From Thiohalospira halophila DSM 15071 (lineage in GTDB: Bacteria; Pseudomonadota; Gammaproteobacteria; Thiohalospirales; Thiohalospiraceae): a stretch of 64,000 nucleotides of DNA. The notes under the pieces are model-generated. The model did not search any database. It was not told where the DNA came from and saw only the letters and a list, made by a program, of their open reading frames with translations. The position numbers and the translations under genes were made by a program. The stretch lies in the NCBI RefSeq assembly GCF_900112605.1, contig NZ_FOMJ01000001.1, positions 334,577-398,576 on the forward strand, given 5' to 3'. Of the stretch, positions 5,277 to 59,251 are shown in pieces (within the stretch, counting starts at the first letter, position 1; every line of letters begins with the position of its first letter).

Positions 5277-5370
5277 GCCCCGTGGAATAGCCCCATTGGG
5301 CGTGGATTGAAGGGGCTGTACACGGTGTTTACTCTTCTTTACCGGGAGATGACGCGCTTCGGGAGGTGCC

Positions 5371-53979: not shown

Positions 53980-54783
53980 TCAGAGGGATGGTCCGCACAC
54001 GCGATCACGCCCGGCCTCCTTGGCCACCAGCATCCGGCGGTCGGCCCGGTCGATGGCCGCGGAATAGCTCCCGTCCGGATCCTCTTCCGTCGTGCTGATC
54101 CCGATGCTGACGGTGATCCGGTCCACCGCCAGGTCCGCCGGCGTGGGTGTGTCACGGATGGTGCGCCGCAGCCGGTCGCAGATCGCCTTCGCCTCTTCGG
54201 CCGTGGTCTCGGGCAGGACGAGGACGAATTCCTCGCCGCCCCAGCGTCCGCAGAGGTCGTACTCCCGCAACTGGTCGGCGAGGAGGTCGCTGATATGGCA
54301 GAGGAGGCGATCGCCGCGCTCATGGCCCAGGCGGTCATTCACGGCCTTGAAGTAGTCGACATCCAGCACGCCGAGGCTCAGGGGCGCGCCGTTACGGCGG
54401 CACCGCTCCAGTTCCGCCTCGAGCCGTTCAACCAGGTAGCGGCGGTTGCCGAGGCCGGTGAGGGGGTCGTGCAGGGCCGCCTCGCGCAGGGACTCGCTGA
54501 GCTCCCGCAGGCTCTCCTGGTAGCGATCGGAGATCCGGACCAGCCGCTCCAGTCGCCGGAGGTGGGTGTCGCACTCCTCGGCCAGGCCGCGCTTCTCCTC
54601 GCGGGCGATCTCGTGGAAGCCGTCGGAGATCCGGATCAGCCGTTCCAGCCGCTCCCGTTGAGCGGTGGAGAGCTCCAGAAGACGGGCCAGCGGCTCCCGC
54701 AGGGGGTTGTGATCATGGGCCGGATCCCCGAGCAGCTCGGTGATGGTCTCCAGGAGCTGCTCCTCGTCGCGACCGCGTGTCAC
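53980..54783 (-). CDS. siaD: SiaD-like diguanylate cyclase
   Basis: A 267-aa cytosolic protein with an N-terminal helical part (about 1-105, with repeated R-L-x-x-L-I/V-R-I-S-D) and a GGDEF domain at about 108-262 carrying an intact G-G-E-E-F, so it should be active. In P. aeruginosa SiaD is activated by SiaC binding to such a coiled-coil stalk. It overlaps siaC by 4 bp, and the gene order siaA-B-C-D on the minus strand is conserved. Confidence 0.9.
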   Translation of the reverse strand: MTRGRDEEQLLETITELLGDPAHDHNPLREPLARLLELSTAQRERLERLIRISDGFHEIAREEKRGLAEECDTHLRRLERLVRISDRYQESLRELSESLREAALHDPLTGLGNRRYLVERLEAELERCRRNGAPLSLGVLDVDYFKAVNDRLGHERGDRLLCHISDLLADQLREYDLCGRWGGEEFVLVLPETTAEEAKAICDRLRRTIRDTPTPADLAVDRITVSIGISTTEEDPDGSYSAAIDRADRRMLVAKEAGRDRVCGPSL

Positions 54784-55181
54784 TCCACGGGCTCCTCGGG
54801 CAGGATCCGGAAGGGGAAGGTACAGTCCTCCTTGAACTCCCCGGCCAGCTCCGCCACCCGTTCATTGCGGGCATCGTAGAGCCACTCCACCACGACCTCG
54901 CGATTCCGGTTGTGGGCCTCCTCCAGGAGGTCGAAGATGTCCAGCATGGCCCGCACCGAGCTGGTGTTGAGATAGGCCAGGCGCAGCTCCAGCCGCAGGG
55001 GATCCTCCCGCTGGTCCAGGTACTCCTGCACCCATCGGACGATCTCGCCAAAGAATTCATAGGAATTCTCCGGGTAGGAGTCCCCCGTCATGGCGAGGAG
55101 GCCACGGGAGGCGTCGGCGACGATCTCCGGTGTGGAGGCGGTGCTCTCGCGTGTCAGTTCAGTCATGGGGTTCGCATTCAC
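54780..55181 (-). CDS. siaC: SiaC-like phospho-switch protein (DUF1987)
   Basis: A 133-aa protein. Y-L-N-T-S-S-V-R at about 70-77 contains the Thr that is phosphorylated in SiaC; counted from the inner ATG at 55166 it is residue 68, the P. aeruginosa number. Unphosphorylated SiaC activates SiaD. The GTG start at 55181 overlaps the siaB TGA (GTGA), but 55166 is plausible. Confidence 0.9.
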   Translation of the reverse strand: MNANPMTELTRESTASTPEIVADASRGLLAMTGDSYPENSYEFFGEIVRWVQEYLDQREDPLRLELRLAYLNTSSVRAMLDIFDLLEEAHNRNREVVVEWLYDARNERVAELAGEFKEDCTFPFRILPEEPVE

Positions 55182-55738
55182 GTCTTGGGATGTTGCTGGA
55201 TGACCGCCTGGAGGCTGAAGAACGCCCGGTCACCCGGGGCCTCCTCCAGCCGTGCCGACAGCGGTCGCGCGGACTTGCGGGCGATATCGATGAGTCCCAG
55301 GCCGGCCCCCGAATCGGCGCCTTCCTCTCGCGGTGCCCGCAGCTGGGTCTTGAACGCGGCCTTCAGCGCGGCCGCGTCCATGCCGGCCAGTTCGTCGATG
55401 CGGTCGACGAGGGCCCGGCCGTCCGCCGTCTCCACCAGGTTGCCGGCGACGACCACGTAGTGGCCCTCCCGGTCCCGGGCAACCACCACGGTCGCGGCGC
55501 TCTCGGTATCGGTGTAGCCCTGCCGGGCGGCGTAGTGGCGGATGTTCTGGGTCATCTCCACATAGGTGCCAAAGACGTCGCTCACGGCGGCGGGGGCGGT
55601 ATCCTCCGCCTGGAGATAGTTTTTGAGCGCATTGCCTATCTCCTCGATGAGGCCGCGGGAGATGGGGCCATTGAAGGCCAGCAGGATGTCCTGGCGCTGG
55701 AAATGGTCGCGCAGGCCGAAGAGGTCGATATCGTGCAT
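55178..55738 (-). CDS. siaB: SiaB-like protein kinase
   Basis: A 186-aa protein of the SiaB family, with the GHKL-like kinase fold that phosphorylates SiaC. I-S-R-G-L-I-E-E-I-G (about 26-35) and G-A-G-L-G-L-I-D-I-A-R-K (about 140-151) fit the N- and G-box positions. ATG 55738; it overlaps siaC and lies 22 bp downstream of siaA. Confidence 0.88.
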   Translation of the reverse strand: MHDIDLFGLRDHFQRQDILLAFNGPISRGLIEEIGNALKNYLQAEDTAPAAVSDVFGTYVEMTQNIRHYAARQGYTDTESAATVVVARDREGHYVVVAGNLVETADGRALVDRIDELAGMDAAALKAAFKTQLRAPREEGADSGAGLGLIDIARKSARPLSARLEEAPGDRAFFSLQAVIQQHPKT

Positions 55739-55760: not shown

Positions 55761-57667
55761 TCAGGTGACGCGGAAGGCGAGGACGGTAATGTCGTCGCGT
55801 TGTTCGTGGTCGCCGCGATAGCTCGACAGGGCCTCCTCCAGGGCGGTCGCCTGCTCCGCCATGGGCCGGCGGGCATGGTCGCGCAGCAGCTCCCGGAAGC
55901 GCGTATTGCCGAAGCCGAACCCGTGGTCACCGCCGGCCTGGTCGAGATAGCCGTCGGTGACCAGGTAGTAGGTCATGCGGGGGTCCGTGGGGTGGCTCTG
56001 GTCGGTATATTCCCCCTGCCGCCGGTCGCACAGCGCGCGCCGTGCGGGGGCGAGTTCCTGGACCTCGGCGCCATCGCTGGCGTGGAGGGCGATGCGGGCG
56101 CCGGCGAAGCGGAGCCGGCCGGCCGTGCGATCGACGCAGACCAGGCCGGCGTCGAGATTGGTGGCGACGCTCTCCGGCATGGCCGACTGCCGGACCATCT
56201 CGCGCAGGGTCTCGTCCGCACGCCGGAGCAGGGCGGCGGGGGAATCGATCCCCAGGGTCGTCATGGCCTCGTCAAAGGCGGTCCGGGCGAGCATGGTCAT
56301 CAATGCGCCGGGGACGCCGTGGCCGGCACAGTCCACCGCGCCCACCAGGAAGCGATCGCCGCCGGCCTCGCTGCGGAAGAGATAGAAGTCGCCGCCGACG
56401 CCGTCCCGCGGGTGCCACAGGATGAAGTGGTCCGGCCCCAGGGTCTCGGTGAGCCGGCCATCGGGGAGCAGGGCCCGCTGGATCAGCGCCGCGTAGTTGA
56501 TGGAGTCCTGGATCCGCCGATTCGCCGTCTCCAGCTCCCGGGTCCGCTGGCGTACCCCCTCCTCGAGGCGGCTGGTGTGTTCCGCGACCTGCTCCGCCAT
56601 GGAGCCGAAGGCCTGACCGAGGTCGCCGATCTCGTCGCGGCGGGACTCCGGGAGGGCCACGCGGTAGTCCCCCTCGGCCAGGGCCGTGGCGGAGTATTGC
56701 AGGGAGCGCAGGGGGCGCAGGATGAGCCGATCCACGCCCCAGGCGAAGCCACCCATCAGTACCAGCAGCGTGACGCCCCCGGCGAGGGCCGCGCTCTGCA
56801 ACCACGGCCCCTCCAGGACCGTGGCGGCCTCCAGGTCCACCGCGCTGATGACGTACCAGTCCAGCGCCGGGACCGCGGTGACGGCGAGTCGCTGGGGGCG
56901 GCCGTCCAGGTTGGCGGTGATGACCGGGATGGCCCCCGCCCCGGCCCGTGCCATGGCCGCGGTCAGTGCCCCGGCATCGCCCTCCAGGGCGGCGTCCAGC
57001 GAGCCCTCGGATTCCTGGCCGGCGGATTCCAGGCCGGCGGCGGAGCCGTAGGCGATCCGGTCCGGGTCGGGGTGGGCCTGGATGGCGCCGTCGGCATCGA
57101 CGATCAGGGGGTCCACCCCGGCCTCGTCGGCGCGGACGAACTCCTCCAGGAAGCGCGACAGATCCAGCCCCGTGCCGGCCAGCCCCACCGCCTCGCCGGC
57201 CCGACGGACGACGACGTTGACCCAGACGCGGGTGACGCCGAGTTCGGCGTCCGGATTGACGTTGACCACCAGGTCCCGCTCGCCCGCCATGATGTTGAAG
57301 AACCAGGCATCGTCCGGCTCGTCGCGGTGCAGGCGATAGCGGGCTCGTCACTGAAGTCGGTATCGGCGGCGTTGTGGAAGTAGCGGCCGTCGGCGTGGAT
57401 GAGGAAGTAGTTGCCGTCGCGGAAGGAATCCCGGTAGCGCTCGGCCTCCCGGAAGAAGGCGGCGCGGGCAGCCGCGGAATCGGGCTGCTGCAGCCAGGTC
57501 CCCGTGAGCGTGGATTCGGCCAGTCGTCGCGCCAGGGCGACCTCCCGCTCCACTCGGGCCCGGATCCCCTGGAGGCCGAGAAACCCCACCGGGATCAGCG
57601 CCAGCAGGCAGGCGGCCAGCAGCGCCAGCATGGCCTTGGCTCGCAGACCGTATCCCCATCGGGCCAT
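55761..57667 (-). pseudogene. siaA: SiaA-like PP2C phosphatase receptor, frameshifted
   Basis: Two frames together make a SiaA of about 635 aa. The N-terminal part (57667 to about 57341) has a signal-anchor helix (about 10-30) and the start of a periplasmic dCache-like domain ending ...A-D-T-D-F-S-D-E-P. The rest continues in the other frame (R-Y-R-L-H-R-D-E-P-D...), then a second membrane helix, HAMP (about 340-395) and a SpoIIE/PP2C domain with R-D-G-V-G-G-D-F-Y and D-C-A-G-H-G-V-P-G-A-L. One base is missing in the GGG at plus-strand 57341-57343; a GGGG restores the frame. Sequencing error, recent mutation or slippage are all possible. SiaA dephosphorylates SiaC. Confidence 0.85.
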
Positions 57668-57727: not shown

Positions 57728-59251
57728 TTAGCCGGCATCCGGGGTTGATGGAAGAACTACGAGGTGGCGCTGGTTGCCGCTGCCCTGGCTCTCCGCCACC
57801 AGGCCGTGGCGCACCACGATCCGGTGCTGGAGCCGGCGGACGGCCCCCTGGGCGGGGGAGAGCGGCACCACCTCGCCCTCCTGGCGCACCCGGTTCACCG
57901 CCTCCTCCACCTCCCGGACCACGGCGCTGACGGTCTCGTCGTCCACGCCGTGGACCTGGTTCAGGGCGTCGGCGAGGGCGCGCCGGATCTGGGCGGTGGA
58001 GTTCTTCTTCACGGTCACCAGGGGGACCGCCGAGGTGTCCACCAGGCGCTGGAGGCGGGGATCGGCGGCGCGGCTGCGCAGGGCCAGCACCAGGTCGGTA
58101 CGGCCCGGGTCGGGGACCGTCTCCGCCGGTAGCCCCTCGGTCCGGATGACGCGGTCGACGGAATCGCGGCTGACGCCGTAGGACAGGATGCGGGTGCGTC
58201 CCCGCGGGCCCACTTCCGGCGCTGAGGATTCGGCACCTTCCGGGAGGCCTGTCTCTTCGGCCGGTGGCGGCGCGCCGGCCCCGGATTCGGCGGCGGTGCG
58301 CATCTCACAGCGCGGGGCTCGGCCCGCCAGCAGGCGGTCCACCGAACGGGCGGTGGAGGGGTGCAGGCGCAGCTCCCCGCGCTGGACGATCTCCACCACG
58401 GCGGTGAAGGCCGGCGGGCCGCGCCGCTCCTGGACGGTCTTCTGGCCGCCCCGGGCCCGGGCCTCGTCGTCGCCGAGGATGACCGTCTGCACCCCGCCCA
58501 CCAGGTCGTCCAGGACGGGATTGCGCAACAGGTTCTCCAGGGAGTGGCCGTGGGCGGTGGCCACCAGCTGGACGCCGCGCTCGGCGATGGTCCGGGCCGC
58601 CCGCGCCTCCGCCTCGGTCCCGATCTCGTCGACGATGATGACCTCCGGCATGTGGTTCTCCACCGCCTCGATCATCACCCGGTCCTGCTGGCGCGGGTCG
58701 GCCACCGGCATGCGTCGGGCGCTGCCGATGGCGGGGTGGGGGATGTCGCCGTCGCCGGCGATCTCTCCGGCGGTATCGATGATGACCACCCGGCGGTCGC
58801 ACTCGTCGGCCAGGACGCGGGCCGTCTCCCGCAGGAGCGTGGTCTTGCCCACCCCGGGGCGGCCCAGGAGCAGCAGGCTCTCACCGGCAGCGACCACATC
58901 GTGGATGGGGTCGACGATGCCGTGGGCGGCCCGCCCTACGCGGAGGGTCAGGCCGATGATGCGGCCCTGCCGGTTGCGGATGGCGGCGATGCGGTGGAGG
59001 GTCCCCTCCACCCCGGCGCGATTGTCGGCGCTGAAGGCCCCCACGCGGCTGGCCACGGCGTCCAGGTCGGCCTGCTCCAGGGGCACGGAGGCGAGTTCGG
59101 CGCGGCCGTGGTCCAGTCGGGCCGTAGCCGGGCGGCCGCGGTCCAGGACGAACTCCACCACCTGCTCGGGATCCAGGGCGGCCGCGGCCGCGCGCAGGTC
59201 CGGCGGCAACAGATCCAGCAGGGCGGCCAGGTCGTCGGTCTGCTCTTCCAT
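57728..59251 (-). CDS. R3H and AAA ATPase domain protein (Ycf45/SpoIIIAA-like)
   Basis: A 507-aa protein. The ATPase core (about 90-300) has Walker A G-R-P-G-V-G-K-T-T (about 127-135) and Walker B V-I-I-V-D-E-I-G-T-E-A-E-A; T-A-H-G-H-S is the sensor. The C-terminal part (about 350-500) with R-R-L-Q-H-R-I-V-V-R-H-G-L resembles an R3H single-strand nucleic-acid-binding domain. The family is widespread in cyanobacteria and proteobacteria, with unknown function. Monocistronic; separated from siaA by 60 bp. Confidence 0.88.
   Translation of the reverse strand: MEEQTDDLAALLDLLPPDLRAAAAALDPEQVVEFVLDRGRPATARLDHGRAELASVPLEQADLDAVASRVGAFSADNRAGVEGTLHRIAAIRNRQGRIIGLTLRVGRAAHGIVDPIHDVVAAGESLLLLGRPGVGKTTLLRETARVLADECDRRVVIIDTAGEIAGDGDIPHPAIGSARRMPVADPRQQDRVMIEAVENHMPEVIIVDEIGTEAEARAARTIAERGVQLVATAHGHSLENLLRNPVLDDLVGGVQTVILGDDEARARGGQKTVQERRGPPAFTAVVEIVQRGELRLHPSTARSVDRLLAGRAPRCEMRTAAESGAGAPPPAEETGLPEGAESSAPEVGPRGRTRILSYGVSRDSVDRVIRTEGLPAETVPDPGRTDLVLALRSRAADPRLQRLVDTSAVPLVTVKKNSTAQIRRALADALNQVHGVDDETVSAVVREVEEAVNRVRQEGEVVPLSPAQGAVRRLQHRIVVRHGLVAESQGSGNQRHLVVLPSTPDAG

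Follow-up and report, generated by a model that had tools for sequence, protein, structure and literature searches.

Is the siaA gene of Thiohalospira halophila DSM 15071 truly broken, and what would follow for the Sia pathway if it is? The stretch of 64,000 nucleotides that we analysed (the window) holds siaA, siaB, siaC and siaD side by side on the minus strand, in the canonical order, from 57667 down to 53980; all operon features given below lie on that strand. The broken siaA, recognised from its open reading frames and from NCBIfam model NF038263, occupies 55761-57667 and stops 22 bases before the siaB start. The kinase gene siaB (55178-55738, ATG at 55738), siaC for the target protein (54780-55181, with a GTG at 55181 overlapping the siaB stop) and the diguanylate cyclase gene siaD (53980-54783, overlapping the siaC stop and encoding a GGEEF motif) each match their NCBIfam equivalog above its cut-off, with scores of 280.9 bits for SiaB (cut-off 225), 193.6 for SiaC (150) and 325.9 for SiaD (290). 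The first-pass annotation had described a complete siaABCD operon with a frame break in siaA and three intact companions, and this description stands, since all four genes match Sia equivalogs and siaB, siaC and siaD score above the cut-offs.

SiaC carries the LNTSS motif, with threonine 68 when numbering starts at the ATG at 55166. The nearest structures in the PDB, all from P. aeruginosa, are 6k4e (the phosphatase part of SiaA), 6k4f and 6kko (SiaC) and 7e6g (SiaD); their titles give family names only, and we take them, with the papers, to be the P. aeruginosa Sia proteins. A scan for promoters and terminators across the sia operon found no sites. The gene upstream of the operon (57728-59251, minus strand) encodes a SpoIIIAA-like AAA ATPase with a match to the Pfam 'PTPase' family PF25516 and an R3H domain.

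Position of the frame break in siaA

The siaA frame that begins with the ATG at 57667 runs to a TGA at 57104-57106. A second frame is open from 57347 to the TGA at 55761-55763, with its first ATG at 57290 and another TGA (57348-57350) immediately upstream of the opening. Homology to SiaA jumps from the first frame to the second between FSDEP and RYRLH, that is, at 57341, inside the GGG at 57341-57343 to which the frame change had been assigned on first reading. Since the TGA at 57348-57350 confines the change to 57347 or below, and homology switches at 57341, the frame must change within 57341-57347, with a net -1 relative to the orthologous frame, in keeping with the single-base break originally proposed. 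A codon-usage model trained on the organism's own genome and blind to homology sets the change at 57345/57346.

The break leaves an N-terminal piece of 109 residues (57341-57667), with the first transmembrane segment and the first part of the sensor, seen from its own frame and from homology; an out-of-frame tail (57104-57340); and a C-terminal piece (55761-57347) with the remainder of the sensor, the second transmembrane segment, HAMP and the PP2C/SpoIIE phosphatase. The two pieces match NF038263 in two frames, over profile positions 50-129 (E 1.1e-20) and then 148-657, so that one continuous protein across the 658 positions of the profile was not found here, while each of four SiaA orthologues gave a single continuous match. 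The C-terminal piece passes the model by itself, with 721 bits (cut-off 700). Upstream of the break, G+C content at the three codon positions is 0.73/0.51/0.87, and the C-terminal frame beyond it has similar values of 0.76/0.49/0.92; in the out-of-frame tail it is 0.41/0.92/0.80, an abnormal composition that does not resemble coding sequence. Given one equivalog matched in successive ranges, the codon model and the codon-position composition, the split in siaA is beyond chance. The second copy of an 8-base direct repeat (57316-57323 and 57342-57349, spanning 57316-57349) abuts the break, which may be a chance arrangement.

Hydrophobic segments of SiaA lie at residues 12-30 (57578-57634) and 294-312 (56733-56789), followed by HAMP (PF00672, 56586-56729) and the PP2C-type phosphatase (PF07228 SpoIIE, 55767-56360, E 2.2e-23), which is related to P. 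aeruginosa 6k4e. The break, at residue 109-110, falls between these two segments and therefore in the sensor, so the earlier description of a divided periplasmic sensor domain is borne out by position. A Pfam scan of the N-terminal piece named no domain, and dCache_1 matches four SiaA orthologues, each below the curated cut-off.

Orthologues and the origin of the break

A genome scan listed 80 of 554 relatives, and frames were read in 34 of these (L038-L071); this reading of siaA integrity left aside the other 46 listed relatives and the sia loci L021-L036. Among the matches listed, 32 loci (L038-L069) have a SiaA with 43-53% identity to the C-terminal piece, and siaB, siaC and siaD were all matched in 31 of them, L069 being without siaB and siaD. 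Thirty siaA genes were aligned, after setting aside L039 (at a contig edge), L063 (interrupted) and the distant L070 and L071. The comparison with orthologues that the first-pass annotation had called for gave a uniform answer: all 30 aligned copies continue across the break site and on to their natural end, and L039 and L063 likewise read through the site. Intact siaA is thus present in many relatives. The genus is represented by one genome, so the comparison had no strain-level relative to draw on.

Apart from the break, siaA is well kept. It retains 92 of the 94 columns that are invariant among the 30 orthologues, and because single orthologues under the same treatment miss between none and seven (L047, for example, keeps 94 of 101), its two departures fall within the spread. 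Beyond residue 300 of the joined protein, which takes in the phosphatase, all 79 invariant columns are retained. At columns conserved at the 90% level siaA keeps 148 of 165, below most orthologues; this does not show decay, because the sequence itself is more distant from the remaining orthologues than most of them are. With siaA otherwise undamaged and its phosphatase domain whole, the break should be either recent or absent from the organism, as an assembly error. At a wider scale, SiaC occurs in one of 12 genomes of the family (the other 11 are without it), and among 369 genomes of the class 13 match the SiaB Pfam family (10 above the cut-off). This patchy distribution suggests transfer or repeated loss of the sia operon.

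The frequency of similar breaks in the assembly was estimated with a frame-break detector. In a benchmark it found 98 of 150 simulated losses, missing about one in three, and called none of 150 unmodified places; breaks near gene ends escape it. A first run (first codon table, 464 kb) called nine places, siaA and eight others. Translations were read for five of the eight, giving one assembly gap of Ns in a repeat and four apparent overlapping genes, with 123385, 182381 and 238311 lying outside this reading. A second run (second codon table, 874 kb) again called nine: siaA, a break in a GGDEF-EAL gene on contig C5 and seven more, of which six look like overlapping genes by translation and one (238311) is unread. 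When the 10 kb piece of C5, which had been chosen through a GGDEF domain search, is excluded, the unbiased count covers 864 kb, and in it siaA is the sole accepted break, the other calls being read as gene overlaps apart from the unread 238311.

The C5 gene (L140, G000:C5:186001-196000) is a membrane GGDEF-EAL gene whose frame changes at seven consecutive Gs, at about 5318-5324. Its GGDEF match stops at profile position 28 and resumes at 28 in another frame, and it is either a second broken c-di-GMP gene of this genome or a homopolymer error. Elsewhere, a run of 115 Ns (G000:C1:24462-24576) lies inside a repeat-rich coding stretch with repeats of the MEQPATEQMEH type. Indels are thus present in the assembly, though not in abundance. 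General decay of the assembly, of which the siaA break might have been a part, was not seen in the sampled sequence.

We consider it somewhat more probable than otherwise that siaA was functional until a recent net -1 change in its sensor, with SiaA lost and the Sia branch of c-di-GMP signalling off. A sequencing or assembly error, with an intact siaA in the living strain, is a less probable but serious alternative. It would account for a gene that is otherwise undamaged and for the intact remainder of the operon; the 8-base direct repeat next to the break also speaks for it, as does the other frame break of the assembly, in seven Gs, an error-prone kind of place. Against it, one frame break was accepted in 864 kb despite thousands of G/C runs, and the DNA around the siaA site has no better fold than its shuffled versions (z 1.60). 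Slippage at a short homopolymer, which the break had also been said to fit, is a weak explanation: the 464 kb sample contains 11,518 G/C runs of exactly three bases in its coding stretches, and yet siaA is the sole break found in that sample (longer runs in the first 464 kb number 165 of six and 30 of seven). Because there is no long homopolymer at the site and its folding is unremarkable, we lean towards a real mutation, though with little force. Phase variation at a homopolymer was rejected, the run being of three bases only.

It is very unlikely that programmed frameshifting or polymerase slippage restores a full-length SiaA, perhaps as a form of regulation. Such a mechanism would fit the overlap of the two frames, the -1 direction of the change and the conserved coding on either side of it, but orthologues have one continuous frame at the site. 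The usual -1 slippery motif has the form X XXY YYZ; the messenger, judged by eye, is without it and the run is only three bases long, while the fold of the 82 bases downstream is just slightly better than in shuffled RNA (z -1.21). Of the marks of programmed -1 frameshifting, the slippery heptamer and a split frame in relatives were thus not seen, and the downstream fold is weak.

Predicted consequences for the Sia pathway

In P. aeruginosa, SiaC is phosphorylated on threonine 68 by SiaB and dephosphorylated by SiaA, and SiaD is activated by the unphosphorylated form of SiaC alone (PMC7278518, PMC7647112); phosphorylated SiaC fails to bind SiaD (PMC7278518). In a siaA deletion 71.27% of the SiaC peak area was phosphorylated, and aggregation in SDS was abolished without siaA (both PMC7647112). 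By analogy, translation of the broken siaA would terminate at 57104 and no working membrane phosphatase would be produced; SiaB would keep SiaC phosphorylated at the conserved threonine, and phospho-SiaC would not bind SiaD, so that the Sia branch of c-di-GMP production would be off. Translation of siaB may fall too, because its start lies only 22 bases after siaA with no promoter-like site between them. Since loss of siaA in P. aeruginosa leaves SiaC mostly phosphorylated and the cells without SDS aggregates, the pathway here is probably locked off.

The first-pass annotation had likewise predicted phosphorylated SiaC, inactive SiaD and a locked pathway. The P. aeruginosa work supports this, but the prediction overlooked a lock in the opposite direction: the sensor could be cut off while an internal start such as the GTG at 56660 yields a soluble, unregulated phosphatase, keeping SiaC permanently dephosphorylated and SiaD permanently active. 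The C-terminal piece is complete, and this GTG (56658-56660, within HAMP) lies behind the second transmembrane segment; among 19 in-frame starts its ribosome-binding-like stretch is the strongest, at -10.9 kcal/mol versus -8.1 at the siaD start. Moreover, the PP2C part of P. aeruginosa SiaA (residues 386-663), taken by itself, shows activity in vitro (PMC7647112). At the same time, a stretch of this strength precedes 76 of the 3744 internal starts sampled (2.0%), and against that background one strong hit among 19 starts is not unusual; the ribosome-binding-like stretch also doubles as coding sequence for a HAMP motif. A P. aeruginosa chimera of a foreign sensor and the cytoplasmic part of SiaA failed to sustain biofilm (PMC12834913). 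We regard an always-active phosphatase fragment as quite improbable.

The genome has one SiaC locus, and a search for SpoIIE phosphatases gave two matches, siaA itself and a short PP2C protein on contig C3, with no second SiaA seen. The C3 protein was rejected as a substitute, being a 248-codon frame without a transmembrane or HAMP part; we read it as PppA/Stp1-like. The 2.69 Mb genome has 44 GGDEF matches (43 above the cut-off), two of which are pieces of one broken domain, a high number of diguanylate cyclases for its size. As SiaD is one of many, the effect of its inactivity on total c-di-GMP may be small.

Comparison with known systems and meaning

The operon resembles P. aeruginosa SiaABCD in its gene order, in its four protein families and in the LNTSS of SiaC, the GGEEF of SiaD and the HAMP-PP2C arrangement of SiaA. 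It differs in that siaA here lies in two frames within the sensor, and in that the members of this host's family that we examined are without SiaC. A parallel for the damage is Salinicola acroporae LMG 28587 (L063), where siaA is likewise interrupted and siaB, siaC and siaD are matched; there, however, the lesion is an in-frame nonsense TAG in the HAMP part, at about 6610, and the sensor site reads through, whereas here the frame changes.

These two cases invite the idea that siaA is a favoured breaking point, siaBCD being kept while the pathway is uncoupled from its signal. On this idea the loss would be adaptive, suiting a planktonic existence or growth in the laboratory, and would have arisen independently at least twice (in T. 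halophila and in Salinicola acroporae), in T. halophila with another c-di-GMP gene broken as well. We think this unlikely, and two losses of siaA with siaBCD retained amount to an anecdote. A literature search on natural siaA frameshifts gave, in the parts of the sources available, a SiaB substitution only (PMC11434582), though such frameshifts may have been published all the same. The operon belongs to a known system and its sole peculiarity is the break in siaA, most likely an ordinary, recent loss of function, or perhaps an error in the sequence, and not a new mechanism.

Either way, knowledge of the Sia pathway is unchanged. If the break is an error, the sequence record needs correction. 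If it is real, T. halophila DSM 15071 would be a naturally occurring siaA mutant that has kept the remainder of the pathway intact, and a possible host in which to ask whether SiaB alone sets the phosphorylation of SiaC and whether siaBCD persists without its sensor.
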